Assembly: GCF_026339875.1 (NCBI RefSeq)
Contig: NZ_JAPEPZ010000003.1
Coordinates: forward strand, 221,216-285,215
Length of the DNA: 64,000 bases
Reading direction: 5' to 3'
DNA from: Streptomyces sp. NBC_01571
Lineage (GTDB): Bacteria; Actinomycetota; Actinomycetes; Streptomycetales; Streptomycetaceae
The translations under genes and the position numbers were made by a program. Positions 10,125-62,786 of the stretch are shown piece by piece (the first letter of the stretch is position 1; every line of letters begins with the position of its first letter). Under the pieces are notes generated by a model that was given only the letters and a program-made list of their open reading frames with translations, had not been told where the DNA came from and did not search any database.

Positions 10125-11740
10125 GCCTTCTCCTTGGTCTGCTGGGGTGCCGCGGCCGCGGCGGGGGGCTGGTTGAGAACGTGGTGGCGGATGACGTCGC
10201 GGCGGGGGCGTCCGGTGACGGTGAAGCAGGTGGCGTAGGCGGGGTCGTCCTCGGACATGAGGTGGACGACGGCGGCGCGTTCGATGCCGGAGAGTTTGCG
10301 CCGGCCGAATTCGGTGATGCGGCTGCGGGCGGTGTCGGGGTCGAGGCCGGCGTCGATGACGAACAGGCCGTGCACGTGGTCGAGGCCGTCGGCGATGACG
10401 GCGGCCTCGCGGATGAAGCCGAGTTCGCGGTAGCGGGCCTCGACCCATTCGGGGGCGACGTTGCGGCCGCCGGCGGTGATGACGAGGTTCTTCTTGCGTC
10501 CGGTGATGCGCAGGTAGCCGTCGTCGTCGATCTCGGCGAGGTCGCCGGTGTGCAGGCGGCCCTGGTCGTCGACGACGACGCTGGAGGGGTCCTCGCGGGT
10601 GTAGCCGGCGAACAGGGAGGTGCTGCGGATGAGGAGTTCGCCGTCGTCGGCGAGTTCGGCGTGCACGTGGTCCAGGGGGCGTCCGACGGTGCCGAAGCGG
10701 ACTTCGCCGGGGAAGTTCCAGGACACGACGGAGGAGTTCTCGCTCAGTCCGTAGCCCTCGTGGACGGTCAGTCCGTGGGCGTGCAGGCGCTGGAGGATCT
10801 CGGGCGGGACGGGGGCGCCGCCGCAGGCGATGAAGACGGGGCCGTCGTGTCCGAAGATCCGCCGGTGGCGTTCGGTGACGCTCTCGGCGGGCTGCTGGTC
10901 GCACAGGGCGAGGAAGAGGCCGGCGACGGTGGGCGGGACGACCAGGGCGGTGGGGCGGGCCTGGCGCAGCAGGGTGAGCATGCGCGGTGCGGCGTCGGCG
11001 GCGGTGCCGACCAGGGCGGTGCCGGGGGGCAGGAAGGACACCGAGCCGCCGGCGAGGAAGGGCATGTAGAGGCCGGCGACCTGTTCGATGAGCAGGCTGA
11101 GGGGGACGATGGACAGGTACCGCTCGAAGATCGTCGGGCGGGTGCGGGTGCGCAGCGAGGTGAGCAGTGCGTCCAGGCCGTGCCGGCGGATCTGCACGCC
11201 TTTGGGGGCGGAGGTGGTGCCGGAGGTGTGGATGACCTTGACGACGGCGTCGTGGTCGGGGACGGGCGGGTGGGGGGCGGGGGGCCGGGCGAGCAGGGCG
11301 GGCAGGTCGAGGGGGGTGGTGGGGCAGCCGGCGGGCAGGACGGGGTCGGGGGTGGCGGTGGTCCAGCGGGCCAGCGCCGCGCCGCCGGCGGTGTCGGTCA
11401 GGCACAGGTCGGCCCTCTCCAGGAGGGAGGCGGCCTGTTGGGCGGTGAAGGCGGTGGGTACGGGGATCTCGACGGCGCCGGCGAACAGGGCGGCGAGGTC
11501 GGCGGCGACCCATTCGGGTGAGTTCTCGGCGAGCAGTCCCACCCGGGCGGGCCGGCCCAGGGTGCGGGCCAGGTCGGTGAGGTCGGCGGCCAGGGCCAGG
11601 GCGGTGCGGATGAGGTCGCGGTAGCTGTGGGCGGTGCCCTCGCCGCCGTCGGCGGCCAGGACGCGGACCATGACGGCGTCGCTGTCGGCCTGCCGGAGCA
11701 GTCCGCGGGCCAGCGACAGGGGTGCGGTGTCAGGCGGCAC
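10121..11740 (-). CDS. Adenylate-forming acyl-CoA/acyl-ACP ligase (ANL superfamily)
   Basis: A 539-residue AMP-binding enzyme that activates a carboxylic acid and transfers it to CoA or a carrier protein. Motifs are intact: P-loop IHTSGTTSAPKGVQIRR, the EGYGLSENSS core motif, the hinge region LHTGDLAEIDDDGYLRITGR and KKNLVITAGGRNVAPEWVEA. The sequence resembles bacterial long-chain fatty-acid ligases more than NRPS adenylation domains. The GTG start at 11740 lies inside the last codons of the thermostable-hemolysin gene (11-bp overlap), and the stop overlaps the oxygenase start by 4 bp. It could prime the type II PKS with an unusual acid or activate the finished chain. Confidence 0.92.
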   Translation of the reverse strand: MPPDTAPLSLARGLLRQADSDAVMVRVLAADGGEGTAHSYRDLIRTALALAADLTDLARTLGRPARVGLLAENSPEWVAADLAALFAGAVEIPVPTAFTAQQAASLLERADLCLTDTAGGAALARWTTATPDPVLPAGCPTTPLDLPALLARPPAPHPPVPDHDAVVKVIHTSGTTSAPKGVQIRRHGLDALLTSLRTRTRPTIFERYLSIVPLSLLIEQVAGLYMPFLAGGSVSFLPPGTALVGTAADAAPRMLTLLRQARPTALVVPPTVAGLFLALCDQQPAESVTERHRRIFGHDGPVFIACGGAPVPPEILQRLHAHGLTVHEGYGLSENSSVVSWNFPGEVRFGTVGRPLDHVHAELADDGELLIRSTSLFAGYTREDPSSVVVDDQGRLHTGDLAEIDDDGYLRITGRKKNLVITAGGRNVAPEWVEARYRELGFIREAAVIADGLDHVHGLFVIDAGLDPDTARSRITEFGRRKLSGIERAAVVHLMSEDDPAYATCFTVTGRPRRDVIRHHVLNQPPAAAAAPQQTKEKA

Positions 11741-12386
11741 GGGTCAGCACCCCCTGCCGGTCCGGGCGGTTGCTCAGCAGCCGCATGTCGACCGAGGTGA
11801 AGCAGTAGCGGCCGATGGCGGCCAGCAGCAGGGTGGACTGTTCGGCGGCCTCGGCGTAGCCGACGACGGGCCGGGTGTCGTAGTAGGTGCCCCAGGAGGC
11901 GCGTTCGTCGACGGGCAGGCGCTCGGGTGAGGCGTCGGCGAGGGGGTGGAAGACGCAGCCGAGGCGCTGCATGAGCGCGGCGAGCCGGCCGGTCATGGTC
12001 ATCACGGCGTAGGGGCGGCCCAGGCAGGCCATGATCAGCGGGATCGCTTTGATGATCTCGGCGCCGGCGGCGGCCCGCACCGAGGCGATGGAGCCGATCT
12101 GCAGGACCTGGTCGCGTTTGACGGGGGTGCCGACGGCCTGGGTGATGACGTCTTCGACGGGAGCGTCGAGATAGCGTTCCAGCAGGATGGTCTCTTCCTC
12201 GGGGAAGGACAGGCCGGCGCAGGCGAGGACTTCCTCCTGGCCGTCGGCGGTGTCCTCGAAGAAGGCGAGGAAGCCGTCCGGGTCGGGGGTGATGCTGGCC
12301 CGGTACTGCTTGGCGAACACCAGCCGGGCCAGGTCCGCGGCGGTCTGCCAGTCCGGGGTGCCGCGCTCGGACAGGGTGATTCTCAT
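11730..12386 (-). CDS. Thermostable hemolysin family protein (GNAT-like fold)
   Basis: A 218-residue protein matching the thermostable hemolysin (T_hemolysin) family described in Vibrio. Recognisable blocks are ILLERYLDAPVEDVI, QIGSIASVRAAAGAEI, YAVMTMTGRLAALMQRLGC and RASWGTYYDTRPVVG. The family name comes from heterologous haemolysis, but the fold is related to GNAT/acyl-homoserine-lactone-synthase-type acyltransferases, so an acyl-transfer role is plausible. It overlaps the ligase gene by 11 bp and is 43 bp downstream of the FAD oxidase. Together with the ligase and oxygenase it looks like a conserved small pathway embedded in a polyketide cluster. The ATG at 12386 has GGGAG upstream. Confidence 0.82.
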   Translation of the reverse strand: MRITLSERGTPDWQTAADLARLVFAKQYRASITPDPDGFLAFFEDTADGQEEVLACAGLSFPEEETILLERYLDAPVEDVITQAVGTPVKRDQVLQIGSIASVRAAAGAEIIKAIPLIMACLGRPYAVMTMTGRLAALMQRLGCVFHPLADASPERLPVDERASWGTYYDTRPVVGYAEAAEQSTLLLAAIGRYCFTSVDMRLLSNRPDRQGVLTRAA

Positions 12387-12429: not shown

Positions 12430-13611
12430 TCATCGCCCGAGCACCGCGGAACGGTGCGCGGCCGGCCGGGCGCTGAGGGCGAGTTCCGCGGCCCGCAGGG
12501 CGCTGTTGATGGAGGTCTCGGCGAGGATGCCGGGGGCGGCGACGCTGTCGCCGGCCAGGAACACCCCGTCCCCGCGGTCGACGGCGGGCCGGTCGCGCCA
12601 GCTGAGGCCGGGCAGGTCGAGGGCGCCGGTGCGGCCCCGGGAGACGCCTTCGCGGCGCCACAGGATGCGCTGCTGCCAGCCCGGTGTGGTCAGGTCGAAG
12701 AGTTTCTCCAGCCGGGCCAGCGCGTCGGCCTTCGACTCGCCGGGCCTGATCGGCATCTGTCCCTGGAACAGGGCCTGGCCTTCGGGGGCGAGGGAGGGGT
12801 CGTGGTCGGAGTACTGGGAGGTGAAGCCGCCCTCGTCCATGTCGAAGGAGACGTTGCCGTCCTTCTTGGAGTGGGTGACGGCCATGTCGAGCAGGGCGGC
12901 GGTGCCGCTGGGCCACTGCAGGGAGTTGTCGCCGAGCAGGCTGCGGGCGGAGGCGAGGGAGGTCGCGACGATGACCGGTCCGCCGGTGGGCAGTTCGGTC
13001 AGCCGGGAGCCTGTTTCGATGACCACGCCGCGGGCGCGGGCGACGCGTTGCATGCGCTCGATCAACGCGCCCCAGCCGCCCATGAAGTAGCGGCTGGGCA
13101 GCGGGAAGCGGGGGGTGCCCACGCGCAGCAGGCGTTCCCACACGAAGGCCGCCGAGAGGCGTCCGGGGTCGCCGTCGAAGAGGATCGGGCCGAGGAAGCC
13201 GAGGGCTTCGTCGACGGTCTGCTGGGCGAAGCGTTCGCTCGCCCAGTCCTGGAAGGAGCGGTCGACGGGGACGTCGATGCCGCGGTGCATCCAGGTCATC
13301 CTCATGTAGCCGCCGGGCAGCGTCATCCGCAGCCGGCCCTGGTGGCGGAAGCGCATGCGGGTCCACTCGTGGAAGGACAGCCGTACGTAGCGGCCGGCCA
13401 GTCCGCGCTGCAGCAGCCAGTGCCAGGCGTCGCCGTTGTCGAAGAAGGTGTGCGGCCCGTCGTTGGTGACGTAGGGGCCGGAGGCGGAGCGGGCGCGGCC
13501 GCCCGCGTGGGAGTGGGCCTCGTGGACGGTGACGCGGGCGCCCTGTTCGGCGGCGGAGATCGCCGCGGTCAGGCCGGCCAGTCCGCCGCCGATGATCGTG
13601 ATGTTCGCCAT
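12430..13611 (-). CDS. FAD-dependent oxidoreductase (amine oxidase / phytoene-desaturase-like)
   Basis: A 393-residue flavoprotein. The N-terminal dinucleotide-binding motif IIGGGLAGLTAAISAAEQGA and the downstream GGRARS are typical of the amine oxidase/phytoene dehydrogenase group, and the C-terminal FAD motif is DGVFLAGDSVAAPGILAE. Related enzymes desaturate or isomerise polyene chains or oxidise amines. The start at 13611 follows a tight fit to the Rossmann strand; the ORF extends upstream to 13755 but that part overlaps the aldo/keto reductase end. It lies 46 bp after that reductase and 43 bp before the hemolysin-family gene. The substrate is unknown. Confidence 0.87.
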   Translation of the reverse strand: MANITIIGGGLAGLTAAISAAEQGARVTVHEAHSHAGGRARSASGPYVTNDGPHTFFDNGDAWHWLLQRGLAGRYVRLSFHEWTRMRFRHQGRLRMTLPGGYMRMTWMHRGIDVPVDRSFQDWASERFAQQTVDEALGFLGPILFDGDPGRLSAAFVWERLLRVGTPRFPLPSRYFMGGWGALIERMQRVARARGVVIETGSRLTELPTGGPVIVATSLASARSLLGDNSLQWPSGTAALLDMAVTHSKKDGNVSFDMDEGGFTSQYSDHDPSLAPEGQALFQGQMPIRPGESKADALARLEKLFDLTTPGWQQRILWRREGVSRGRTGALDLPGLSWRDRPAVDRGDGVFLAGDSVAAPGILAETSINSALRAAELALSARPAAHRSAVLGR

Positions 13612-13657
13612 GGTTGTCGCTCTCACTCGCCTTCGAAGGTCCGCGGCCGGTCTGGTC

Positions 13658-14653
13658 TCAGCCGTCGAGCGTGGCCATGGCGCCGACGGGATAGCGGTCC
13701 CCCACCGTGGAGCCGTGGGGGGCGATCTCGTCGAGCGCCGTGAGGTCGTCCGCACTCAGGACCACGTCGCTCGCGGCGAGGTTCTCCTGGAGGTACGGGA
13801 CGCGCTTGGTGCCGGGGATGGCGACCACGTCGTCGCCCTGGGCGAGCACCCAGGCCAGGGCGAGCTGCCCGGCGGTGATGCCCTTGGATGCGGCCAGGTG
13901 CTGCAGCCGTTCGACGACGTGCAGGTTCTGGTCGAGGTTGCCCTGCTGGAAGCGGGGCGCGACGCGGCGGAAGTCGTGTTCGGCCAGGCCGTCGAGGCTG
14001 CGGATGCGGCCGGTGAGCAGGCCGCGGCCCAGCGGGCTGTAGCCGACGAAGCCGATGCCCAGTTCGCGGACGGTGGCCAGGACTCCGTTGACCTCGACGT
14101 CGCGGGTGGACAGGGAGTACTCGGTCTGTACGGCGGCCAGGGGGTGCACGGCGTGGGCGCGGCGGATGGTGGCGGCGGACGCCTCGCAGACGCCGAGGTG
14201 GCGTACCTTGCCGGCCTCGACCAGTTCGGCCAGGGCGCCGATGGACTCCTCGATGGGCACGGCGGGGTCGACGCGGTGCAGGTAGTACAGGTCGAGGTGG
14301 TCGGTGCCCAGCCGGCGCAGGGTGCCCTCGACGGCGGTGCGGATGTAGTCGGGGCGGTTGTTGAGGCGGCCGGTGATGGTGCCGTCCTCGGTGATCTCGT
14401 TGCCGACCTTGGAGGAGACGACGACGCCCTCGCGGCGGCCGGCGATGACGCGGGCGACGAACTCCTCGTTGCTGTGCGGGCCGTAGAAGTCGGCGGTGTC
14501 GAGGAGGGTGACGCCCAGCTCGAGTGCCCGGTGCGCGGTGCGCAGGGCCTCCTGGTCGTCGGCGGGGCCGTAGGCGAAGGTCATGCCCATGCAGCCGAGT
14601 CCCTGTTCGGAGACCGCCGGCCCCTGGCTGCCGAGTGTTCGTTGCCGCATCAT
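13658..14653 (-). CDS. Aldo/keto reductase
   Basis: A 331-residue NADPH-dependent TIM-barrel reductase. It has the family opening [20 protein letters not shown], catalytic Asp/Tyr region [16 protein letters not shown], the Lys in [19 protein letters not shown] with the catalytic His, and the C-terminal cofactor motif [16 protein letters not shown]. It resembles YajO/Tas-type reductases often found in polyketide clusters for carbonyl or deoxysugar keto reduction. Two ATG codons (14653, 14650) follow GGAAGGA; the first is taken. It starts a tailoring sub-operon separated from the SnoaL-like gene upstream by more than 900 bp of repetitive DNA. Confidence 0.92.
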
Positions 14654-15577: not shown

Positions 15578-16447
15578 TCAGTCGGCGGTGGCCAGTTCGC
15601 TGGTGACGGAGGCCCAGGTGTGGCCCGTGCCGGCGGTTGCGCTCTCGGCCAGGCGGGTCCACGGGTCGGTGCCGAGGACCTCGGTGGCCTGCTCGCGCAG
15701 CCAGTGGTCGAAGGGGTCGGCGGAGGTGAGCAGGCGGCGGGCGGCGGCCTGCGGGTCGCGGGCCTCGATCTGGTGGACCAGGACGTCCTGGCCGTCGAGG
15801 GGGCGCAGGTCGAAGGACTCCTGGAGGATGCCGGCGCGGCGCCGGGAGGCCTCGTAGGCGTGCAGCCGCGGTCCGGTGAGCTCGGCCTGCAGGCGGCGCC
15901 AGCCCTCGGCCGCGCCGCCGGTCAGGGGCAGCAGGGCGCAGGCGCCGGTGACCGTCCGGCGGGCGGCGGCGCGGGCGGCGGTGCGGGCGGCGGGGGCCAG
16001 CCGGCGCATGCCGAGCACGGCCAGCATGTTGGACTCCACGCCGATGCCCCAGCGTTCGGCGATCAGGCCGTTGTCCAGCAGCCGCCACACCACGACGCCG
16101 GTGAACTCGATGACCTGCCCGGTGGGGGCGGCGCCCAGGAAGTCGCCCAGGTGGGTGCCGCGCCAGGTGTTGTGGATGACGACGTGGTCGCCGTGGGCGC
16201 TCATGTCCTCGATGGTCACGTGCAGGTCGGGGAAGCCCTCGCGCAGGCCGGCGATGGTGTAGCGGACTCCTTCGAGTCCTTCGGGGGCTCCGGGCAGCGG
16301 CTGGTGGTCGACCATGTCGGGGCTGTAGATCTCGTCCACGACCGAGAAGTCGCCCTGGTTGACGAAGGCGTCGAAGACCCGGCGGATGGTCTTCTTGTTG
16401 CGCTCCTCCACGCTCTGTGCGGTGCGCACCGTCTCTTGTATCGACAC
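15578..16447 (-). CDS. SnoaL-like ester cyclase domain fused to a DUF6176-like C-terminal domain
   Basis: A 289-residue two-part protein. Residues about 15-150 are a SnoaL/NTF2-like domain (RVFDAFVNQGDFSVVDEIYS, HQPLPGAPEGLEGVRYTIAG, GFPDLHVTIEDMSAHGDHVV). After an Ala/Arg-rich linker, residues about 215-265 (RAGILQESFDLRPLDGQDVL to TSADPFDHWLREQATEVLG) resemble DUF6176, a small ferredoxin-like domain seen in other proteins. SnoaL proteins are usually about 130-150 residues, so this is a fusion. The GTG at 16447 has AAGGA upstream. It lies 68 bp after the KASIII-like gene, so it may act on the nascent chain as a cyclase or carrier. Confidence 0.78.
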   Translation of the reverse strand: MSIQETVRTAQSVEERNKKTIRRVFDAFVNQGDFSVVDEIYSPDMVDHQPLPGAPEGLEGVRYTIAGLREGFPDLHVTIEDMSAHGDHVVIHNTWRGTHLGDFLGAAPTGQVIEFTGVVVWRLLDNGLIAERWGIGVESNMLAVLGMRRLAPAARTAARAAARRTVTGACALLPLTGGAAEGWRRLQAELTGPRLHAYEASRRRAGILQESFDLRPLDGQDVLVHQIEARDPQAAARRLLTSADPFDHWLREQATEVLGTDPWTRLAESATAGTGHTWASVTSELATAD

Positions 16448-16515: not shown

Positions 16516-17646
16516 TCACCTGCCGGGGAAGGGGGCGTCCCAGGTGAGGGTGAGGCCCGCGTACACGTAGCGGCTGGCCTCGATGGCGAGCAGCAGGACG
16601 GTGTCGCCGGGGGTGATGCGGCCCTCGCTCCAGCCGGCGTCCAGGGCCAGCGGTACGGCGGCGGAGCCGGTGGCGCCGACGTCGGTGAGGTTTTCCACGA
16701 TGGTCTTGCTCAGGGTGGTCTGGTCGGCGGGGGACAGTCCGGCGGTGCCGTACTCGCCGGCGAAGTACTCGGCGTTGCCCTCGGGCAGGACGCAGGCGTC
16801 GATGTCGTCGAGGGTGAGGCGGGAGCGGTGCAGCATGTCGTGGATGCCTTCGACGAAGACCCGGGGGCCGAACCGGGCGGTGCCGGGGATGTCGAGGCGG
16901 ATGTCCATGAGGCGGGGGCGGCGCTGCTGTTCGGCGAGGGGGGCGTCGGTGCCGCCGCCGATGATGTGCATGCCGGGTTTGCGGGTGCCGCCCAGGGAGC
17001 GGGTGGCGAAGACGGGGCGGGGGCGGCCGGCGGCGGAGCCTTCCTCGCCGGCGCGCAGCACCATGGCGCCGGCGCCGTCGCCGAAGGTGTAGACGGTCAG
17101 CCGGTCGCGCATCCGTACGCGTTCGGGTTCGCGGCCCAGGAAGACGGGGGCCAGCAGGGGGGAGACGGCTTCCGCGCCGATGACCAGGGCGGTGGTGTAG
17201 GTGCCGTCGGCGAGCAGGCGGCGGGCGATGTCGAGGGCCTGGACGGCGCCGACACAGCCGGCGCGGACCTCGATGACGGCGCAGCGTTCCAGGCCGAGTT
17301 GTTCCTGGACGTAGGTGGCGGCGACGGGCAGCAGGTAGTCGGGGCTGGCGGTGGAGACGACGATCAGGTCGATCTCGTCGGCCGTGACGCCGGCCCGGTC
17401 GAGGGCCTGGCGGGCGGCGGCGGTGGCCATGGCGGAGGTGCTGGTGGTGTGGGCGCCGGTGGCGGGGTCGACCATCCAGTGCCGGCGCTCGACCTGGATG
17501 CCGTCCAGGACGTCGTCGGGCAGCGGTCCGCAGACGCGGGCGAGGGCGTCGTTGTCGAGGGCCTCGCCGGGCAGGTGGGCGCCGGTGGCCAGGACGGACA
17601 CGTGGCGTTCGGCGGGTGCGGGGGGCGGGGCGGGGGTGTGGGGCAT
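16516..17646 (-). CDS. KASIII (FabH)-like protein with altered catalytic residues
   Basis: A 376-residue thiolase-fold protein of the 3-oxoacyl-ACP synthase III family, normally used to start chains from an acyl-CoA. The nucleophilic Cys is present in EVRAGCVGAVQALDIA, and DYLLPVAATYVQEQLGL fits the family. The catalytic His region, usually VPHQAN, reads CVLPEGNAEY, and the HGNTSAAS region with the catalytic Asn reads DVGATGSAAVPL. Two of three catalytic residues therefore seem to be replaced. Such homologues can work as acyltransferases rather than condensing enzymes, by inference. The ATG at 17646 lies 2 bp after the fused KS-CLF stop, so it is translationally coupled to it. Longer upstream ORF sequence overlaps the KS-CLF gene and is not real. 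Confidence 0.88.
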   Translation of the reverse strand: MPHTPAPPPAPAERHVSVLATGAHLPGEALDNDALARVCGPLPDDVLDGIQVERRHWMVDPATGAHTTSTSAMATAAARQALDRAGVTADEIDLIVVSTASPDYLLPVAATYVQEQLGLERCAVIEVRAGCVGAVQALDIARRLLADGTYTTALVIGAEAVSPLLAPVFLGREPERVRMRDRLTVYTFGDGAGAMVLRAGEEGSAAGRPRPVFATRSLGGTRKPGMHIIGGGTDAPLAEQQRRPRLMDIRLDIPGTARFGPRVFVEGIHDMLHRSRLTLDDIDACVLPEGNAEYFAGEYGTAGLSPADQTTLSKTIVENLTDVGATGSAAVPLALDAGWSEGRITPGDTVLLLAIEASRYVYAGLTLTWDAPFPGR

Positions 17647-17648
17647 GG

Positions 17649-20009
17649 TCAGTTCTCCGTTGCGGGACGCAGGACGAGGCTGATGTGGGTGCCGCCGAGG
17701 GAGGAGCTGTTGATGAGGACCGGGCCGGCGGGGGTGTCTTCCTGCCAGCCGGTGACGGCGAGGAGGGCGGCGAGCTGGGCGCCGGCGCCGACGGGTTCGC
17801 CGAGGGTCTGCTTGGGGGTGTGCACGGGGCAGCCGGACTCGGCGGCGAGCCGGCCGGTGGCCCGTGCCTCGGGGGCGTCGGCGCGGGTGAGGCCGGCGGC
17901 GTTGGCCCAGATCGCGGTGACCTCGCCGGGGTGCAGTCCGGCGTGGCCGAGGGCGGCGTGCATGGCGCGTTCGACGCCTTCGCCGTCCTCGTCCCAGCGG
18001 CCGACGCCGGCCGCGTCGCAGGCGGTGCCGTGGCCGGCGAACTCGGCCAGGATGCGGGCGCCGCGGGCGCGGGCGCTCGACTCGCGTTCCAGGACCAGGG
18101 TGATGCCGGCCTCGGCGAGGGTGTAGCCGGTGTCGGTGAACAGGGGCAGGCCGCGGTAGGCGGTCAGGACGCCCGGGGAGAGGTCCTCGACGGCCGGGCA
18201 CAGGACGGCGTCGGCGCGGTGCTGCAGCAGCAGGTCGTGGGCGACGGTCAGGGCGGAGGCGCCGGCGGCGTGGCCGGTGGTTACGGTGGAGGTGGGGCCC
18301 TTGGCGCCGACGTGCATGGCGACCTGGCCGGCGGCGGCGTTGAAGACGGTGTTGGGGAAGACCGCCGGGCTGCCCTCGGCGGGGCAGCCGTCCAGGACGG
18401 GCAGCAGGAAGTCCTCGATGCTGCGCATGGGGCCCAGTCCGGTGCCCAGGACGACGCCGGTGTGCTCGTCGGCGTCCAGGCCGGCGTGGGCGAGGGCGGC
18501 GCGGCAGGAGGCGACGGCGAGCTGGGAGAGGCGGTCCATGCGGCGGCGGTCGCGGGCGCTGATGTGCGCGGCGGGGTCGAAGTCGGCGCGGGCGACGTGC
18601 AGTCCGTCCTCCTCGGCGCCCAGCCGTCCGCCGTGCCGCCAGGCCTCCCAGAGTGCTTCCAGGCCTTCGCCGGCCGGGGTGATGGCGGCGCCGCCGGTGA
18701 TGACGACCTTCTCCGCGGCGGGCGGGGCCGGTACGGAGAAGCGGCGGCCGGAGGGCCAGCCGAAGGCGACGCAGGCGTTGGCGCCGGCGAAGGCGAAGTT
18801 GTTGGACAGGGCGGCGTTCATGGCCAGTTCACGGCCGGTGTCGGGGACGGCGTCGAGTCCGCATTTGGGGTCGGTGCCGGTGAAGTTGGCGGTCGGCGGG
18901 GCGGTCTGTTCCACCAGGGCCTGGACGGTGACGATGGCCTCGACCGCGCCGGCCGCGCCGAGCAGGTGGCCGATCATCGACTTGGAGCTGCTGAGCGCGG
19001 TCTTGTCGGCGGCCTCGCCGAACGCGGCGCGCACCGCGTTGGACTCGGCGGAGTCGTTCTTGGGGGTGCCGGTGCCGTGGCCGTTGATGTAGCCGACGTC
19101 CTGCGGGGTGATGCCGGCTGCCTTCAGGGCGCCGCGGATGGCGCGGGCGGCGCCCTCGCCCTCGGGGTGCGGGGCGGTGGCGTGGTAGCCGTCGGCGGAC
19201 AGGCCGTAGCCGAGGACCTCGGCCAGGATGGGGGCGCCGGCGGCGCGCGCCACGGACTCCTCGGCCAGGACCAGCATGCCGGCGCCCTCGCCGAGCGAGA
19301 GTCCGTCGCGGTCCTTGGAGTAGGGGGCGGCGGGCTTGGTGGACAGGGACTGCAGGCTGGTGAAGCCGGCGAACGCGGTCTCGGTGAAGGCGTCGCTGCC
19401 GCCGGCGAGCATCGCGTCCGCGCGGCCGGCGGAGATCGCCTCGGCGGCGTGCGCGATGGCGTGGGCGCCGGAGGCGCAGGCGGTGTTGACGCTCAGCGCG
19501 GGGCCCTTGAGACGGAAGGCGCTGCTGAGTGCCTCGGCGATGGCCTGCGGGGGGACCAGCAGGTAGTGCCGGCCGTCGTCGGGGGGCGCGGTGCCCTCGC
19601 GGCTGCGGCGGGCGAGTTTCTCGGCGGTGCGCAGGCCGCCGTTGCAGGAGCCGAAGGCGACGCCCCAGCGTTCGGCGGGCAGCGCGCCCAGGCCCGCGCC
19701 GGCCATCGCCTCCTGGGCGGCGGTCAGCGCGAAGTCCATCGCCGGCTCGCGCTCGCGGCCGCCGAAGGAGGCCAGGTAGTCGTAGGCGGGCCGGGAGGGG
19801 TCGGGTACCTCGCCGCCGATGGCCGTGCCGTAGCCGTCCATCGGCATGCCGCGGACCGGGCCGATGGCGGAATGCCCGGCCCGGATGCCCTCCCACAGCG
19901 CCGTGGCGCCCTCGCCCTGGGCGGTCACGGCGCCGACGCCGCAGACCACCACGGTCCGGGGCCGGGCCGCGGCGTCCGGCCGGGTGTCGTGGTCGTAGAC
20001 GTCGGTCAT
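17649..20009 (-). CDS. Fused ketosynthase-chain length factor (KS-CLF) on one polypeptide
   Basis: A 786-residue protein made of two complete condensing-enzyme domains. Domain 1 (about residues 18-400) has all three catalytic residues: Cys in VNTACASGAHAI, His in INGHGTGTPKND and His in SMIGHLLGAAGA. Domain 2 (about 410-780) keeps the fold but has lost them: the Cys region reads VTTGHAAGASAL, the first His region IWANAAGLTR, and the second LGEPVGAGA. This is the active KS / inactive partner arrangement of type II PKS, normally two separate subunits. The frame is open through the junction, so the fusion is real in this sequence. The ATG at 20009 has AAAGGAG upstream; an alternative GTG at 20210 overlaps the CLF stop by 4 bp and would add 67 Pro/Ala-rich residues. 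Confidence 0.93.
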   Translation of the reverse strand: MTDVYDHDTRPDAAARPRTVVVCGVGAVTAQGEGATALWEGIRAGHSAIGPVRGMPMDGYGTAIGGEVPDPSRPAYDYLASFGGREREPAMDFALTAAQEAMAGAGLGALPAERWGVAFGSCNGGLRTAEKLARRSREGTAPPDDGRHYLLVPPQAIAEALSSAFRLKGPALSVNTACASGAHAIAHAAEAISAGRADAMLAGGSDAFTETAFAGFTSLQSLSTKPAAPYSKDRDGLSLGEGAGMLVLAEESVARAAGAPILAEVLGYGLSADGYHATAPHPEGEGAARAIRGALKAAGITPQDVGYINGHGTGTPKNDSAESNAVRAAFGEAADKTALSSSKSMIGHLLGAAGAVEAIVTVQALVEQTAPPTANFTGTDPKCGLDAVPDTGRELAMNAALSNNFAFAGANACVAFGWPSGRRFSVPAPPAAEKVVITGGAAITPAGEGLEALWEAWRHGGRLGAEEDGLHVARADFDPAAHISARDRRRMDRLSQLAVASCRAALAHAGLDADEHTGVVLGTGLGPMRSIEDFLLPVLDGCPAEGSPAVFPNTVFNAAAGQVAMHVGAKGPTSTVTTGHAAGASALTVAHDLLLQHRADAVLCPAVEDLSPGVLTAYRGLPLFTDTGYTLAEAGITLVLERESSARARGARILAEFAGHGTACDAAGVGRWDEDGEGVERAMHAALGHAGLHPGEVTAIWANAAGLTRADAPEARATGRLAAESGCPVHTPKQTLGEPVGAGAQLAALLAVTGWQEDTPAGPVLINSSSLGGTHISLVLRPATEN

Positions 20010-20206
20010 GGCCGCACTCCTTTCGGGGATGCCGTGTGTTGCGGGCATTCCAGCTGCTGCGGGTATCGCGGGTATGGCGGGTGAACCGGGTGCTGCTGAT
20101 GTGCCGGGTGTGCCAGGCGTGTTGGGTATGGCCGGTGTGCCGGGTGCGGCTGGCGGGCCGGGTGCGGCCGGTGTGCGGGGTATGGCGGGTGTGTCGGGCT
20201 GCCGGG
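20010..20206 (-). other. Repeat-rich spacer, possibly an N-terminal Pro/Ala extension of the KS-CLF
   Basis: This 197-bp spacer is an array of imperfect GGGTATGGCGGGTGTGCCGG-like units. On the minus strand it stays in frame with the KS-CLF and would encode PAIPRTPAAPGPPAAPGTPA and similar. A GTG at 20210, overlapping the upstream stop as GTGA, could start translation here. The stronger ribosome binding site lies inside, before the ATG at 20009. Confidence 0.55.
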
Positions 20207-21496
20207 TCACGAGGGCCGTCCCAGGGCGACGGCGACGGCCTGCCCCTCCAGGCCGCGGGCCAGGGCCAGGGCGCTGTCGGGGCGGGTGTGGCGGGGGCTG
20301 AGCGGGACGTAGTCGAGGTCGCACTCGGGGGCGGGGCGGTGCAGGTTGAGGGTGGCGGGCACGGTGCCGCTGTCCAGGGCGAGCGCGGCGACGGCCGCGT
20401 TCAGTGCGCCGGCGCCGCCGACCAGGTGCCCGGTCTGTGGTTTGACGCTGCTGATCTGGGCGGACTTGGCGGCGGTGCCGAGCGCGTCGTGCAGGGCGAC
20501 GGTCTCGCTGGCGTCGCCCTGCGGGGTGGCGCAGCCGTGCGCGGCGATGTAGCCGCCGTCGGGGAAGGGGCGTTCGGCGTCGCGCAGGGCGCGGGTGATC
20601 GCGCGGGCCAGGCCGCGGGCGCGGGGCTGGGGGCTGGGCGGGCGGACGCAGTCGTTGCCGGCGCCGAATCCGGTGACTTCGGCGTAGCAGTGGGCGCCGC
20701 GGGCCAGGGCGTGTGCGCGTTCCTCCAGGACGAGCAGGGCGGCGCCCTCGCCGAACACGGAGCCGGAGCGGTCGCGGTCGAAGGGGCGGAAGGCCTCCTG
20801 GCCGAGGTCGGTGCGGGTGCTCAGGACGCCGAGGCCGTCCATCTTGGACATCGCCCACCAGCCGGTGGCGTCGTCGTAGCCGCCGGCGAGGACCACGTCG
20901 GCCTCGCCGCGGCGTACGGTGCGCATGGCCCGGCCGATCGCCATCGCGCCGGAGTCGGCGGTGCCGGCGAAGTAGGCGTTGGCGCCGCGGATGCCGTACT
21001 TCTCGGAGATGTGGAAGGCGGCGGCGGGCTGCAGTCCCTCGACGAAGAACAGCGGGGCGACCACCGAGGAGGCGGTGCGGCCGAGCAGGTGCAGGTCGGG
21101 GGTGCCGTCGTCGGCGCGGACGGCCTGGAGCTGGGCGATGAGTTCGTCCATGCGGGGCATTTCCTTGTTGCTGCCGAGGAAGAGCCCGGTGCGCTGTCCC
21201 AGGTCGCTCTCGCCGTCCAGGCCCGCGTCGCGCAGGGCCAGGGTGGCGCCGGCCAGGGCCAGTTGGTCGCCGCGGCACAGCATGCGCAGGGTGCGCCGGC
21301 CGGCCCACCGGGTGGGGTCGAAGCCGTGGATCTCGGCGCCGATGCCGGTGCGCAGCGGGGCCGGGTCGTAGGCGCGCAGCGGGCCGATGCCGCAGCGGCC
21401 CTCCAGCAGGCTGTCCCAGGTCTCGGCGGCGCTCTGGCCGATCGCGGTCATCAGGCCGATGCCGGTGACCATCACGCGGCGGCGCTGCTCGCTCAT
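20207..21496 (-). CDS. Chain length factor / inactive ketosynthase subunit (KS-beta)
   Basis: A 429-residue FabF-like protein. The nucleophile is missing: the usual TAC(S/A)SG reads GTADSGAMAIG, with Asp at the Cys position. Both histidine regions survive (YIAAHGCATPQGDASE and KPQTGHLVGGAGAL). This matches the non-catalytic partner that sets chain length in a type II heterodimer. The likely active partner is the KS at 22005-23282, with the dehydratase gene between them. The ATG at 21496 overlaps the dehydratase stop by 4 bp. A second KS-CLF pair, fused, follows immediately, so the cluster encodes two condensing heterodimers. Confidence 0.9.
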   Translation of the reverse strand: MSEQRRRVMVTGIGLMTAIGQSAAETWDSLLEGRCGIGPLRAYDPAPLRTGIGAEIHGFDPTRWAGRRTLRMLCRGDQLALAGATLALRDAGLDGESDLGQRTGLFLGSNKEMPRMDELIAQLQAVRADDGTPDLHLLGRTASSVVAPLFFVEGLQPAAAFHISEKYGIRGANAYFAGTADSGAMAIGRAMRTVRRGEADVVLAGGYDDATGWWAMSKMDGLGVLSTRTDLGQEAFRPFDRDRSGSVFGEGAALLVLEERAHALARGAHCYAEVTGFGAGNDCVRPPSPQPRARGLARAITRALRDAERPFPDGGYIAAHGCATPQGDASETVALHDALGTAAKSAQISSVKPQTGHLVGGAGALNAAVAALALDSGTVPATLNLHRPAPECDLDYVPLSPRHTRPDSALALARGLEGQAVAVALGRPS

Positions 21497-22008
21497 GCTG
21501 TGCCCTCCCAGGTCGTCGTGGCGCTGACCAGGGTCAGGGCGCGGACGGTGGCGACCACCCGGCCCTCGACCCGGGCGGTGGCCCGGCATTCGGTGCGCTG
21601 CCGGCTGTGTTCGCTCACCTCGACGGTGAGGTGCACCTGGTCGCCGGGGCCGACGAAGTGCTTGAAGCGCACCCCGCGCACGCCGGCCAGGCGCCAGGCG
21701 CCCGGGCCGGCGGCGGTGCGGGCCAGGGCGGCCAGGCTCTCCAGCAGCAGCACGCCGGGCAGGACGGGGTGGCGCGGGAAGTGGGCGGTGAAGCACGCCA
21801 GGGTGGCCGGCACGTTGCGCACGGCCACGGCCCGTTCGCCCTCGGCGAGTTCCAGCAGCCGGTCGAAGGCCGGCAGTCCCCCGGTGCCGGCCGGCGCCTG
21901 CGCGACGGCGGCGGTCTGCGGGGTGGTGGCGGTCTGCGGGGCGGTGGCGGTCTGCGGGGCGGTGGTGGCGGCACCCTGCGGGGCGGTCTGCGGGGCGGTG
22001 GTGGTCAT
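21493..22008 (-). CDS. 3-hydroxyacyl-ACP dehydratase, FabZ-like hotdog protein
   Basis: A 171-residue hotdog-fold protein removing water from 3-hydroxyacyl-ACP to give a trans double bond. The catalytic His and Glu are both visible in HFPRHPVLPGVLLLESLAAL, matching the FabZ pattern. About 40 N-terminal residues are a low-complexity linker of repeated PQTA units, encoded by a short in-frame DNA repeat, which FabZ proteins do not normally have. It overlaps its neighbours by 4 bp on each side (stop with CLF start; start with KS stop). It probably works with the His-less hotdog subunit at 23279-23731. Confidence 0.9.
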   Translation of the reverse strand: MTTTAPQTAPQGAATTAPQTATAPQTATTPQTAAVAQAPAGTGGLPAFDRLLELAEGERAVAVRNVPATLACFTAHFPRHPVLPGVLLLESLAALARTAAGPGAWRLAGVRGVRFKHFVGPGDQVHLTVEVSEHSRQRTECRATARVEGRVVATVRALTLVSATTTWEGTA

Positions 22009-23282
22009 GTGTCCTCCCGCGGGGCGCCGATGACGAGGCTGGTGTTGCTGCCGCCGAACGCGAACGCGTTGATGAGGGCCGCGTCCACCGGCATCGGGCG
22101 GGCGGTGTGCGGCACGTAGTCGAGGTCGAGGCCGCGGTCGGGCTGGTCGAGGTTGACGGTGGGCGGGACCAGGCGGTGGCGGATCGCGCCGAGTGCGGCC
22201 AGCACGCCCAGGCCCAGGCTGGCCGAGGTGAGGTGGCCGGCCATCGACTTGGGGGCGCTGACGACCAGGCGGCGGGCGTCGTCGGCGAACACCTTCTTGA
22301 TGGCGACGGTCTCGGACTGGTCGTTGCCGTGGGTGCTGGTGCCGTGCGCGACGACGTAGTCGATGCCGCCGGTGCCCACGCCCGACTCGGCCAGTGCCGC
22401 CTGCATGGCCTGGATCGCGCCGGAGCCGTCGGGCGGCGAGTCGGTGATGCGCCAGGCGTTGAGGGTGGAGCCGTAGCCGAGGACCTCGCCGAGGACCGGT
22501 GCGCCGCGTTCGCGGGCGGCATCCAGGTCCTCCAGGACCACGGCGACGGCGCCCTCGCCGACCACGAAGCCGGAGCGGTCGGCGTCGAAGGGCCGTGAGG
22601 CGTGCTCGGGGTCGTCGTTGTGACGGTCGGTCAGGGCGCCCAGCAGGCTGAAGCCGAGCAGGTCGAGCCAGGTGGTCAGGGAGTCGTAGCCGCCGGCGAC
22701 CATCAGCTGGGCGTCGCCCTCCTGGATGGCGCGGAAGGCCTCCCCGATGGCGTGCCCGGATCCGGAGCAGGCGGTGGAGATGCCGATCATCGGGCCGGTC
22801 GCGGACATCATCCGGGCCATGGCGCTCAGCGGCACGTTCTGGTCGTCGGTCAGGGTGACGGCCGGCGGGTGGCACAGGAAGGCGTCCGGGCGGCCGGTGG
22901 TGGCGCGCAGGTGACCGACGTCGAGGAGGGCCTGCAGTTCGGGCCGGCCGACGCTGGCGCCCATGGCGACACCGCGCTCGTCGAAGGGGTACACGTCCTC
23001 GCCGAGTTCGTCGGCGCCCGCGTTGCGCAGTGCCTCCCAGGCGGCCGCGACGCCGAACTGGCCGACCCGGGAGAGGTGTTTGCGTCCCACCCGGGCGGGG
23101 ATCGCCGTGGCCGCGTCGAAGTCCTTGACCTGGGCGGCGATACGCACCGGGAAGCCGGAGGCGTCGAAGGTGGTGAGCGGGCCGACGCCGCTGCGTCCGG
23201 CGGCCAGCGACTGCCAGGTGCTGTCGGCGTCGTTGCCGAGCGGGGTGACGGCCCCCACTCCGGTGATGGCTACACGGGTCAT
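22005..23282 (-). CDS. Ketosynthase (KS-alpha) of a type II polyene-type PKS
   Basis: A 425-residue FabF-like 3-oxoacyl-ACP synthase that condenses malonyl-ACP with the growing chain. The triad is complete: Cys in GISTACSGSGHAIG, His in VVAHGTSTHGNDQSE and His in PKSMAGHLTSASLG. N-terminal MTRVAITGVGAVTPLGNDAD is typical. It lies between the two hotdog genes with 4-bp overlaps on both sides. The gene arrangement (two hotdog proteins, KR, several KS-like proteins, discrete ACP) recalls aryl-polyene and ishigamide-type highly reducing type II PKS systems. Its heterodimer partner is probably the CLF at 20207-21496. Confidence 0.93.
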   Translation of the reverse strand: MTRVAITGVGAVTPLGNDADSTWQSLAAGRSGVGPLTTFDASGFPVRIAAQVKDFDAATAIPARVGRKHLSRVGQFGVAAAWEALRNAGADELGEDVYPFDERGVAMGASVGRPELQALLDVGHLRATTGRPDAFLCHPPAVTLTDDQNVPLSAMARMMSATGPMIGISTACSGSGHAIGEAFRAIQEGDAQLMVAGGYDSLTTWLDLLGFSLLGALTDRHNDDPEHASRPFDADRSGFVVGEGAVAVVLEDLDAARERGAPVLGEVLGYGSTLNAWRITDSPPDGSGAIQAMQAALAESGVGTGGIDYVVAHGTSTHGNDQSETVAIKKVFADDARRLVVSAPKSMAGHLTSASLGLGVLAALGAIRHRLVPPTVNLDQPDRGLDLDYVPHTARPMPVDAALINAFAFGGSNTSLVIGAPREDT

Positions 23283-23731
23283 CCCACCGGCCCTCCGCCC
23301 TGCAGCTGGTGCGCCATGCGCCGGGTGTCGGCCGGGTCGTCGAGGCGCTCGGCGTCGATGAGCGCGCACAGGATGCCGCTCGCGCTCAGGACGTCCTCGC
23401 CGTCCGCGGTCACGGTGCCGTCCAGGAGGGCGGCCTCCTCGGTCATCGACTCGATGGTGGCCCGCATGCGCAGTACCTCCCCGGGGCGTACGGCGCGGTG
23501 CGCGGTGGCCTCGCCGACGGCGAGGAGCGCGGCACGCAGCCGGTGGTCGGTGGAGAGCATGATCAGCCAGGTCGCCGACTGGCACAGCGCCTCCAGGGCC
23601 AGCCCGAAGGGCAGTGCCGGTCCGCTCCCGGTGTCCTGCCAGTAGGTCTCGTCGACGGAGGTGACCTTGCGCGCGGTGATGTGCTCCCGCGGCGTCCAGG
23701 TCTCGATCCGGTCGATCAGATGGAATCGCAT
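23279..23731 (-). CDS. Hotdog-fold dehydratase-like subunit lacking the catalytic histidine
   Basis: A 150-residue protein whose central helix region (ALPFGLALEALCQSATWLIM) aligns with the FabA/FabZ hotdog helix and keeps the acidic residue. The segment that normally carries GHFPGHPVMPG reads YWQDTGSGPALPFG, so the histidine is absent. Similar non-canonical hotdog proteins pair with an active one in polyene type II systems to form a heteromeric dehydratase; that role is inferred. It overlaps the KS start by 4 bp and lies 32 bp after the ketoreductase gene. An alternative is a product-binding or thioesterase-like hotdog. Confidence 0.75.
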   Translation of the reverse strand: MRFHLIDRIETWTPREHITARKVTSVDETYWQDTGSGPALPFGLALEALCQSATWLIMLSTDHRLRAALLAVGEATAHRAVRPGEVLRMRATIESMTEEAALLDGTVTADGEDVLSASGILCALIDAERLDDPADTRRMAHQLQGGGPVG

Positions 23732-23763: not shown

Positions 23764-24531
23764 TTACGGACGGCCGATGCCCAGCTGGGCGGAGAACCCG
23801 CCGTCGACGCAGAGCAGTTCGCCGGTGGTGTAGCCGGAGTCGGGTCCGGCCAGGAACACCGCTGCCGCGGCGACCTGCTCGACGGTGGCGAAGCGGCGCA
23901 GCGGTATCTGCCGCTTGATGCTGCGGCCGCCGTCGCGCTGCATCACCCCGTCCACCAGGTCGGTCGGGGTGAACCCGGCCAGGACCGCGTTGACCCGCAC
24001 GCCGAAGCGGGCGAGTTCGATCGCCGCGCAGCGGGTGAAGGAGTTCAGCGCGCCCTTGGAGGCCGAGTAGTTGGCCTGGCCGATCCAGCCGCGCTCGCCC
24101 ATGGCCGAGGAGATGTTGACGATCGTGGCGTCGCCGTGGGCCATGAACTGCTCCATGACGGCGTGCGTGCAGTGGTACGCGCCGCCGAAGTTGACTTTCA
24201 TGACGTTCAGCCAGGCGTCCGGCGGCGCGTCGTAGATGAGGCCGTCGTCGCTGGTGCCCGCGTTGTTGACGAGCACGTCGAGGGAGCCGAGGAGGCGGGT
24301 GGCCTCCTGCACCAGGCGGGCGGCCTGCTGCGGGTCGGCGACGTCGGCGCCGATCGCCACGGCCCGGCCGCCCGCGGTCTCGATCTCCTTGACGACCGCG
24401 GCGGCGTCCTCCTGCCGGGAGCGGTAGTTGACGGCGACGGCCGCCCCCTGCTCGGCCAGGGCCAGGGCGATGGCCCGGCCGATGCCGCGTGAGGCACCGG
24501 TGACCAGGGCGGTGCGGTCCTTCAGCTTCAT
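23764..24531 (-). CDS. fabG: 3-oxoacyl-ACP reductase (FabG-type SDR)
   Basis: A 255-residue short-chain dehydrogenase reducing 3-ketoacyl-ACP to 3-hydroxyacyl-ACP with NADPH. It has TGASRGIGRAIALALAEQGA, the NNAG motif (VLVNNAGTSDDG), the catalytic Ser in NISSAMGERGW and the YxxxK as NYSASKGALNSFTRCAAIE. The C-terminus CVDGGFSAQLG is typical. In this cluster it would act after each condensation, feeding the dehydratases. No enoyl reductase gene is visible in the window, which fits retention of double bonds. Confidence 0.93.
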   Translation of the reverse strand: MKLKDRTALVTGASRGIGRAIALALAEQGAAVAVNYRSRQEDAAAVVKEIETAGGRAVAIGADVADPQQAARLVQEATRLLGSLDVLVNNAGTSDDGLIYDAPPDAWLNVMKVNFGGAYHCTHAVMEQFMAHGDATIVNISSAMGERGWIGQANYSASKGALNSFTRCAAIELARFGVRVNAVLAGFTPTDLVDGVMQRDGGRSIKRQIPLRRFATVEQVAAAAVFLAGPDSGYTTGELLCVDGGFSAQLGIGRP

Positions 24532-24686: not shown

Positions 24687-25109
24687 TCAGGCGGCGTTCT
24701 GCGCCGCGGCCCGCTCGGTCAGCAGGTCGGTCAGGTTCTGCACGGTGAACAGGCCCAGCACGCCCTCGGCGGTCAGCGGCTCGGCGAGCTGGCTGCGGTC
24801 GAACTGCGGCAGGACCTTCTCCAGGTGGGTGAGGCCGGTGTCGTTGACGACCTCGTTCTCGTCACCGAACTCCTCGTCGGGGATGCCGCCCTGGAGCAGC
24901 GCGGCGATGTCGGCCACGGTGATCTTCACCTTGGTGGCGCGCTCGATGCGGAAGAGGATGTCGAGCAGGTCGATCGACTCGGCGCCCAGCTGTCCGAGCA
25001 GGGTCGCCTCGGCAACCGCCTCGGACTCGTCGATGCCGAGGGCGTCGGCGATGGCGGCCTGGACCGCATGGAAGTAGTCGGTCGAGGTGGAAGTCAGGGT
25101 TTCGGACAC
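24687..25109 (-). CDS. Acyl carrier protein with a long C-terminal extension
   Basis: A 140-residue ACP. The phosphopantetheine Ser lies in LLGQLGAESIDLLDILFRIE near residue 50, inside an ordinary four-helix domain (about residues 8-85). The remaining 55 or so residues, including EEFGDENEVVNDTGLTHLEK, are acidic and do not belong to a standard 80-residue ACP. The GTG at 25109 (VSETLTSTS) is preferred because AAAGG lies 9 nt upstream; the ORF reaches 25151. It is the only discrete single ACP in the polyene block and presumably carries the growing chain between KS, KR and DH. Confidence 0.9.
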   Translation of the reverse strand: MSETLTSTSTDYFHAVQAAIADALGIDESEAVAEATLLGQLGAESIDLLDILFRIERATKVKITVADIAALLQGGIPDEEFGDENEVVNDTGLTHLEKVLPQFDRSQLAEPLTAEGVLGLFTVQNLTDLLTERAAAQNAA

Positions 25110-25220
25110 CGTTGGCTGCCTTTCGGATGGGTCGTTCTCCGGTGCCGGCACCGGAGGCCGGCACCGGACGGACGGGAACGGGAGAGGGAAGAAGGAGAAG
25201 AGGGAACAGGACGGGAGCAG

Positions 25221-25319: not shown

Positions 25320-26288
25320 TCAGGCGGCGGCGTCAGGGGCGGACTCCTGCCTCAGCTCGCGCAGCAGCGCGGTGATGCGGCGCGCGTCGTGGGTGCTGCG
25401 CACCACGGAGTGGACGCCGGTGCGGTTGGCGAAGCCGCTCAGCACCCGGCCGGGGCCGGCCTCGAGGCAGCCGCCCGTCCCGTGCGCTCCCGCGGCGCCC
25501 AGCACGTCCACCCAGCGCACCGGCCCGGCCAGCTGACGGCGCAGCAGGTCCCGGGCGTGCGCGCCGTCGCGCACCAGGGTGCCGGTGACCGAGCTGATCA
25601 CCGGCAGCCGGGGTGCGGCGAAGGTGACGCGCTCCAGTTCGGCGGCGAACTCGTCCTCGATCGCCCGCATCAGCGAGCAGTGGAAGGGCGCCGAGACCTT
25701 CAGCGCCACCACCCGTTCGGCGCCGGCCGCCAGCGCGCGGCGGGCGGCCTCCTCGACCGCCGCGCGCTGCCCGGAGATCACCGTCTGGCCCGGCTCGTTG
25801 TAGTTGGCGATCTCCACCACGCCCAGCGGGGCACAGCCGGCGCAGATCTCCTCGATCCGGGCGGGGTCGAGGCCCAGTACGGCCGTCATCGCCCCGCCGG
25901 CCCGGCGCGAGACGCCGGCCATCAGCTCGCCGCGGCGGCGCACCAGCCGCAGCGCCTCGTCGGCGCCCAGCACCCCGGCGGCGACCAGCGCCGTGTACTC
26001 GCCCAGGCTGTGCCCGGCCACCACGGCCGGCACGAACCCGGCCTCCTCGCGCAGCACTTCGAGCACCGCGAGGCTGGTGGCGACGATGGCGGGCTGGGCA
26101 ATCTCGGTCGGGGCCAGCTCCTCCTCCCCCGCCGTGCTGCACAGCGCGGTCAGCGGCAGGCCGGTGGCGTCCTGCGCGCGCGCCAGGACGCGTCCGGCGG
26201 TGCGGGGGTGCTCACGCAGCAGATGCCCGGCCATGCCCGCGCGCTGCGAGCCCTGCCCGGGAAACATCGTGAAGAAATTGTCGATCAT
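25320..26288 (-). CDS. fabD: Malonyl-CoA:ACP transacylase
   Basis: A 322-residue acyltransferase that loads malonyl units from CoA onto ACP. It shows MFPGQGSQRAGMAGHLL, the catalytic Ser in VVAGHSLGEYTALVAAGVLG, the substrate-orienting Arg following it, and the catalytic His in VSAPFHCSLM. Most type II PKS clusters borrow the fatty-acid enzyme; a dedicated copy is typical of polyene-type systems. It is the first gene of the long leftward train, so its upstream region (26289-26571) should hold the main promoter. The ATG at 26288 begins MIDNFFTMFPG; the ORF continues further upstream without family similarity. Confidence 0.93.
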   Translation of the reverse strand: MIDNFFTMFPGQGSQRAGMAGHLLREHPRTAGRVLARAQDATGLPLTALCSTAGEEELAPTEIAQPAIVATSLAVLEVLREEAGFVPAVVAGHSLGEYTALVAAGVLGADEALRLVRRRGELMAGVSRRAGGAMTAVLGLDPARIEEICAGCAPLGVVEIANYNEPGQTVISGQRAAVEEAARRALAAGAERVVALKVSAPFHCSLMRAIEDEFAAELERVTFAAPRLPVISSVTGTLVRDGAHARDLLRRQLAGPVRWVDVLGAAGAHGTGGCLEAGPGRVLSGFANRTGVHSVVRSTHDARRITALLRELRQESAPDAAA

Positions 26289-26335
26289 CCCCGTTCCTGC
26301 CTCACTGAGTTGACGAAAGCGCCGGAGAAAGGTCA

Positions 26336-29425: not shown

Positions 29426-29658
29426 CTGGGTGTCTCCTCGTGGCGGTGCGGGCGGATGTCCTCGCAGGGCGCGGTACGGCGGACCGCCGCGGCCGGGCCG
29501 TCCCACGTCCCCGCTGAATCCCTTGCGAACCAATGCAGTTGTCAACGCTAGCATTCGAAGCACTGAACTTGATAGTGTCGGCAGGACATCTAGCATTGAT
29601 ATATCCACGGGGCGGCAAGGCCCTTGTGGCAACCGGCAGACGGACAAGGGTGGTTGTG

Positions 29659-58604: not shown

Positions 58605-58662
58605 GAACCCTCCAGTGGTCGTTCCTCACTCCATCGCAAGATGTTTTCCTTGCAACCACTCC

Positions 58663-58688
58663 AAACCAAACCAGGTAGTCCGTATTTT
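58663..58688 (-). promoter_or_regulatory. ARE-like operator upstream of the butyrolactone receptor gene
   Basis: Reading leftward it begins AAAATACGGACTACCTGGTT and continues TGGTTT, similar to the ARE consensus and to the site before the afsA homologue. It lies 59-84 bp before the receptor ATG, consistent with autorepression. Confidence 0.65.
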
Positions 58689-58696
58689 CACAAGGG

Positions 58697-62710: not shown

Positions 62711-62734
62711 AGAAAACCGGTAGGTTCGTATCTT
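62705..62734 (+). promoter_or_regulatory. Promoter with ARE-like operator before the afsA homologue
   Basis: TTGAAA (62705-62710) and TATCTT (62729-62734) are 18 bp apart. The spacer and -10 are covered by AGAAAACCGGTAGGTTCGTA followed by TCTT, a good ARE match: reversed it reads AAGATACGAACCTACCGGTT then TTCT. A bound receptor would block RNA polymerase directly. Confidence 0.75.
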
Positions 62735-62786
62735 ATGACCCTGCACGGTCGATCCCAGCCCATCCAACGGCGCAACGGAGACACCC

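Follow-up and report, generated by a model that had tools for sequence, protein, structure and literature searches.

An old and recurrent single-chain ketosynthase-chain length factor gene in a reducing type II polyketide synthase-like cluster of Streptomyces sp. NBC_01571

In the 64,000-nucleotide stretch of Streptomyces sp. NBC_01571 analysed here (the window; contig NZ_JAPEPZ010000003.1, positions 221,216 to 285,215), a ketosynthase (KS) and a chain length factor (CLF)-like domain are joined in one polypeptide; this fused KS-CLF is a real, old and recurrent single-chain form in a reducing type II polyketide synthase (PKS)-like gene cluster. The gene is located on the minus strand and extends from an ATG at 20009 to 17649, with 786 codons and without internal stop. 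The uninterrupted frame and the coordinates given by an earlier sequence-only reading were thus confirmed, whereas the strand had been missing there; the plus-strand open frame over the same bases (17616-20084) contains no KS sequence. The ATG at 20009 is backed by the ribosome-binding stretch CCGAAAGGAG, which is kept in 6/6 aligned sequences (window and five loci). In the Pfam analysis, the N-terminal and the C-terminal ketoacyl-synthase domain each occur twice in the protein; a family dedicated to the fused form was absent from the matches listed (Pfam; best 25 of 41 NCBIfam rows). The gene is composed of the following parts:

17649..20009, minus strand: fused KS-CLF gene, 786 aa (frame, Pfam, homologues, predicted structure, start alignment)
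18759..19958, minus strand: domain 1 (KS1), residues 18-417, intact ketosynthase (motifs, Pfam, alignment)
18714..18758, minus strand: linker of ~15 residues (418-432) from the last KS1 strand to the first domain-2 strand (secondary structure of the model, alignment)
17652..18713, minus strand: domain 2 (CLF1), residues 433-786, KS fold (alignment, profile and structure comparison)

Domain 1 exhibits the Cys-His-His set of an active KS, as had been claimed before, in the motifs TACASG (C178, codon 19478-19476), NGHGTG (H311, 19079-19077) and MIGHLL (H348, 18968-18966). C178 is present in 120 of 121 aligned sequences (one gap), H311 and H348 each in 121/121, and 143 of the 400 domain-1 sites reach 97% identity in this family alignment. 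The closest KS among the PDB chains is 9s5h (287 bits); KS1 scored 275 bits to FabF (4b7v) versus 206 bits to 6kxd_A of Iga11-Iga12, in one stretch each. Between KS1 and domain 2, 108 of 350 aligned residues are identical.

In domain 2 all three catalytic residues are replaced, and the motifs quoted by the sequence-only reading are exact: TTGHAAG (Cys to H580, codon 18272-18270), IWANAAG (His to N703, 17903-17901) and LGEPVG (His to E738, 17798-17796). In the family alignment (n=121), position 580 is occupied by His in 120 sequences and by Asn in one, position 738 by Glu in 102 and Asp in 18 (one gap), and position 733 (K733, 17813-17811) by Lys in 117, whereas position 703 varies (Asn 88, Ser 14, Ala 12, Gly 7). 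In a second, wider set taken with KS1 alone, the Cys place showed H 31, Q 1, G 1, C 1 and 14 gaps. Residues other than His stem from P0347, P0306 and P0353, which are fused proteins of greater distance; P0250 of this set has Gln at position 738. Because His and Glu/Asp are each kept in 120/121 sequences, the alignment points to a site that is retained within the family and not simply decayed.

The predicted structure of the 786-aa single chain (predicted template modelling score, pTM, 0.94), a check that had been suggested earlier, has the KS and the CLF packed together. From this predicted model, the best structural match over both domains was the one-chain KS-CLF of PfaC (6riw; template modelling score 0.83 by query), i.e. 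the KS-CLF didomain of polyunsaturated fatty acid (PUFA) synthases (Santin et al. 2020, as cited in PMC12895367); one-chain KS-CLFs are known from these synthases according to the accessible part of the same source (PMC12895367). Like the window protein, PfaC combines an active KS with a following KS-fold CLF in a single chain; unlike it, PfaC lies within a multidomain megasynthase, whereas the window protein consists by Pfam of KS and CLF only and is accompanied by discrete acyl carrier protein (ACP), ketoreductase (KR) and dehydratase (DH) genes. The fused protein and PfaC (6riw) share 19% identity, compared with ~40% between KS1 and FabF. A further VIA comparison, which covers domain 1 alone, does not list 6riw; this is no argument against PfaC.

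The fusion recurs widely among homologues. In the protein search, 1881 of 7991 scored candidates passed E 0.001; a size of 750-830 aa was found in 113 of the best 120 of these 1881, with five longer and two shorter. Named hosts among the listed homologues are Streptomyces, Streptacidiphilus, Nocardia, Frankia, Actinomadura, Paractinoplanes and Mycobacterium, to which the searches with domain 2 alone and KS1 alone add metagenome-assembled Myxococcales, Symbiobacteriaceae and Dehalococcoidia. At E 1e-100, matches were obtained in 9/199 whole genomes of the same genus (six of the same family, three of more distant fused types) and in 2/396 of the same phylum, the window's own genome included in both counts. 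In each of the 16 plasmid records with a match, one place alone accounts for at least 80% of the query; the ten listed are each single-piece and all from Streptomyces, and in the linear 267,650-base plasmid NZ_CP107820.1 the fused gene is annotated as one coding sequence. Judged from homologue lengths, genome counts and plasmid records, the fusion is therefore neither an error nor unique, but patchy in its distribution. The sequence-only reading had named many characterised homologues with the same fusion as evidence that would speak against it: homologues are indeed many, but no characterised ones were found, and PfaC belongs to another system. Both halves are under purifying selection, with dN/dS (nonsynonymous to synonymous substitution) ratios that range over 0.26-0.37 in KS1 and 0.35-0.43 in domain 2 (the 6 of 11 loci tried that the motif search picked up). 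In two relatives the fused frame is broken: in Streptacidiphilus sp. 4-A2 (L017) the second KS/CLF pair of the cluster (see below) is present and a sequencing error could be the cause; in Streptomyces eurocidicus (L018) no other KS occurs in its 22 kb, which looks like pathway decay, the second pair being gone too.

The phylogenetic analyses suggest a considerable age of the fusion. In the KS tree, the KS1 clade comprises 22 fused and 4 stand-alone rows (support 100/100): Stand-alone P0285 is the sister of fused P0253 (100/100), P0277 and P0296, the latter cut by its contig, are positioned beside fused P0258 (99/97), and P0271, which may be broken, is placed on weaker branches (82/74). The fusion is old, since these stand-alone rows branch from within a clade of fused KSs, the simplest reading being a fusion at the base of the KS1 clade with rare later splits. 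In the tree of KS and CLF halves, KS1 forms a group (97) with the KS halves of the same-genus fused genes L074/L075 and L076 and with two unfused rows, L025 and L048; the CLF halves of L074/L075 and L076 join domain 2 (93), apart from the KS halves, and several of the branches are long. In a tree with more rows, KS1 is separated from the other fused types by unfused KSs (branch 95), which would speak for separate fusions. A recent tandem duplication, with KS1 and domain 2 as sisters, was not seen; three fused types have their domain-2 halves in one common group (93, long branches).

Searches with single domains addressed stand-alone copies. Among the 120 matches listed for domain 2 alone, many of the His-type are preceded by a KS tail or, on short contigs, begin within the domain, several (e.g. 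P0128, P0155, P0160) are without KS tail, and those from P0181 onward, except P0223, are Cys-His-His KSs of 28-39% identity. Among the 120 listed for KS1 alone, 64 are fused or partly fused, 53 are KS only and 3 carry another tail. Few of the KS-only rows reach at least 55% identity: P0277 and P0285 look intact, P0271 stops soon after the linker, the tails of P0257, P0281, P0309 and P0311 look frame-broken, and P0296, P0299, P0302 and P0305 are cut.

The genes surrounding the fused gene are given below in their order along the minus strand; the fused KS1-CLF1 gene itself is positioned between CLF2 and the KAS III-like gene, and the series is continued after the TauD-family gene by genes for a major facilitator superfamily (MFS) protein, a cupin, a SnoaL-like protein and a further MFS protein.

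28202..29647, minus strand: FAD-dependent monooxygenase, upstream of fabD (profile match)
25320..26324, minus strand: FabD, ACP S-malonyltransferase, start uncertain (TIGR00128, 272 bits, cut-off 260.9)
24687..25151, minus strand: acyl carrier protein, start uncertain (PF00550)
23764..24531, minus strand: KR, short-chain dehydrogenase/reductase (SDR) ketoreductase (profile match)
23279..23731, minus strand: DH1, FabZ-like dehydratase (Pfam, overlap)
22005..23282, minus strand: KS2, second ketosynthase, 425 aa, Cys-His-His present (Pfam, motifs)
21493..22008, minus strand: DH2, FabA/FabZ-like dehydratase (Pfam, overlaps)
20207..21496, minus strand: CLF2, second KS-like subunit, 429 aa, Ala at the Cys place (GTADSGA), both His present (Pfam, motifs)
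16516..17646, minus strand: KAS III (ketoacyl-ACP synthase III)-like protein, directly after the fused gene (profile match)
15578..16447, minus strand: SnoaL-like cyclase (Pfam)
13658..14653, minus strand: aldo/keto reductase (Pfam)
12430..13620, minus strand: FAD-dependent oxidoreductase of amine-oxidase fold, start uncertain (PF01593 on the longer frame 12430-13755)
11730..12386, minus strand: "thermostable hemolysin" domain protein (PF12261)
10121..11740, minus strand: AMP-binding ligase (profile match)
9216..10121, minus strand: TauD-family dioxygenase (profile match)

A second KS with a Cys-less KS-like partner is thus encoded in the same operon, in accordance with the sequence-only reading. 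ATGA overlaps join DH1-KS2-DH2-CLF2: The DH1 stop overlaps the KS2 start, the DH2 start overlaps the KS2 stop and the DH2 stop overlaps the CLF2 start. The Cys place of CLF2 is Ala in 17/17 rows (two being the window's own copy); L072 and L073 have lost the first His of CLF2. L009-L014, L016 and the plasmid L085 share the core that extends from FabD to the KAS III gene; the genes downstream of the core vary, and the flank of L014 is without PF12261, AMP-ligase and TauD match. A literature search on the "thermostable hemolysin" revealed nothing relevant to the product. A tract of ~140 bases (20069-20207), which follows the CLF2 stop and precedes the ribosome-binding site of the fused gene, consists of 9/18/36-base repeats that are missing from all five aligned relatives; read in frame, it would give a Pro/Ala-rich stretch from a GTG overlapping the CLF2 stop.

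Compared with the KS-CLF pairs of type II PKSs, the locus possesses a KS-fold partner without catalytic Cys (domain 2) as well as a discrete ACP and tailoring enzymes, but one 786-codon frame, the same in relatives, replaces the two separate polypeptides. A KR and two DHs are present, and the aldo/keto reductase and the other oxidoreductases are possible further reductases. The ishigamide (Iga11-Iga12, 6kxd), youssoufene, globisporamic acid and mbg clusters likewise have a discrete ACP, a KR, dehydratases and several KS/CLF pairs; in contrast to the window, KS and CLF of these polyene or highly reducing type II PKSs are separate proteins, and no fused pair is mentioned in the accessible parts of the respective papers (PMC9381841, PMC13311259). 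The open-access literature, with subscription papers outside its scope, yielded no description of a type II system of discrete enzymes that has a fused KS-CLF, as far as the available sections of PMC10698177, PMC10132072, PMC9582728, PMC13311259, PMC12664062, PMC9381841, PMC11446937 and PMC8358021 extend. AmcF-AmcG of cispentacin also combine a KS with a motif-poor KS-like partner, but as two proteins, and the fused protein reached only 289.5 bits (2 stretches), below the AmcF cut-off of 325. The actinorhodin KS-CLF (1tqy) resembles the window protein in its active KS with a Cys-less KS-fold partner and differs in that both are separate proteins, domain 2 matching the ActI CLF with only 64 bits. 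The CLFs of aromatic type II PKSs have a conserved Gln at the Cys position, where domain 2 has His in nearly all sequences. The other same-genus fused genes (L074/L075, L076) are similar in their frames of ~800-890 aa with KS and CLF-like domain, but differ in that their identity is 37-42% and Gly occupies the Cys position. In L077 and L079, the two loci scanned with Pfam, a KR and a GCV_T (aminomethyltransferase-like) gene are neighbours of the fused KS-CLF gene; L077 additionally contains FabA-like, PALP and ornithine-cyclodeaminase genes.

Most probably, the 786-aa protein is a single-chain KS-CLF pseudo-heterodimer that belongs to a type II PKS of the reducing (polyene) type. In the proposed mechanism, FabD and ACP of the cluster would make malonyl-ACP; the acyl chain would be loaded on C178 of domain 1 and then condensed with malonyl-ACP, while domain 2, packed against domain 1 in the same chain, would act as non-condensing partner that shapes the pocket. 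The KR and the two dehydratases would convert each beta-ketone to an alkene, so that the chain would grow as a polyene; KS2 with its Cys-less CLF2 would probably serve a different chain-length range. Two results weigh against this assignment: Domain 2 scored higher to FabF (119 bits) than to the solved CLFs (ActI CLF 64, AntE 47, Iga12 45), and no CLF chain appeared for domain 2 among the 50 VIA rows (one per entry). "CLF" is for these reasons to be understood as a term of architecture, not of descent from known CLFs.

As to the cause of the fusion, the sequence-only reading had proposed a role in fixing the pairing: as the same operon gives rise to a second pair, the fusion would have been selected to stop KS1/CLF1 from swapping partners with KS2/CLF2. 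This is possible but rather unlikely, and it is not supported as the cause. KS2/CLF2 are indeed directly upstream of the fused gene in 12/12 loci with an intact fused gene of this family and enough flank (L009-L014, L016, L080-L084), as they are upstream in the window and in the annotated plasmid L085; however, L077, L078 and L079, of other fused types, are without other KS in the 20 kb examined (~8-9 kb each side), and the fusion may predate the link with KS2/CLF2, the neighbourhoods covering part of the clade. Furthermore, unfused subunits pair correctly in clusters with four and three pairs, where the pairing was confirmed experimentally and one wrong pair gave no detectable complex (accessible part of PMC13311259); cinnamoyl-lipid clusters generally carry two or three KS/CLF pairs (accessible part of PMC9381841).

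Alternatively, domain 2 might be a second enzyme, with H580 and E738 (and K733, N703) forming an acid-base site within the KS fold for reactions of the tethered chain such as isomerisation, dehydration, decarboxylation or ring closure. The kept His, Glu/Asp and Lys733 described above would fit such a role, as would the Glu shared by the more distant fused L074 and L075, though Gly replaces Cys there, and the "cyclization factor" proposed as the role of AmcG in AmcF-AmcG (accessible part of PMC10698177) would be a precedent. This role is nevertheless unlikely: With 87 of 351 domain-2 sites at least 97% conserved in the family alignment, conservation alone is no proof of catalysis, N703 varies, and the wider set deviates at the Cys place and, in P0250, at position 738. 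Aromatic CLFs, too, keep a conserved residue at the Cys place. In a combined form, an old one-chain condensing family would have gained a second active site in its CLF half, with His-Glu/Asp acid-base chemistry on the just-extended chain; distinctly unlikely as this is, a single polypeptide would then condense and subsequently process its chain.

FabF is a homodimer, and in view of the FabF-like score of KS1 two fused chains could form a KS1-KS1 homodimer in the same manner, with domain 2 outside or domain-swapped. Such an arrangement is very unlikely, as the single-chain model is predicted to pack both domains with high score and matches the PfaC KS-CLF over both. Finally, the broken frames in L017 and L018 notwithstanding, a sequencing or assembly artefact is vanishingly improbable and was rejected, because independent assemblies carry the same fusion, as evident from homologue sizes, plasmid records and the single annotated coding sequence. 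An origin as part of a type I PKS or PUFA synthase was likewise rejected, because the protein consists of two KS domains only and its neighbours are discrete enzymes.

The single-chain KS-CLF offers type II PKS research a natural pair of fixed 1:1 stoichiometry, which is an advantage where a partner made on its own is insoluble, as AmcG was (accessible part of PMC10698177). It extends the architecture known from PfaC to discrete-enzyme clusters, in which it is old and recurrent. The most interesting point of the analysis is the conserved His-Glu/Asp site of domain 2, a testable case of whether CLF-type domains do chemistry.

In the KAS III-like protein (16516-17646), the Cys region (RAGC) is kept, while the usual His and Asn seem to be gone by eye; judged from these residues, it may transfer acyl groups instead of catalysing a condensation. 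Genes of nucleotide-sugar type are located near the cluster at 164-1420, and rfbC/rfbD are present in the plasmid L085 (28817-30352); the product of the cluster may thus be glycosylated. At 32464-34493, a serine resolvase domain and an OrfB/TnpB-type protein are encoded in overlapping frames, an element that we take to resemble the IS607 type. The window ends where the 285,215-base contig (C3) ends, possibly at the terminus of a linear plasmid; at 58000-64000, the plus strand is strongly A/C-rich (GC skew to -0.64, AT skew to 0.62) and contains numerous short repeats of the CCACCC/CACCAAC kind.
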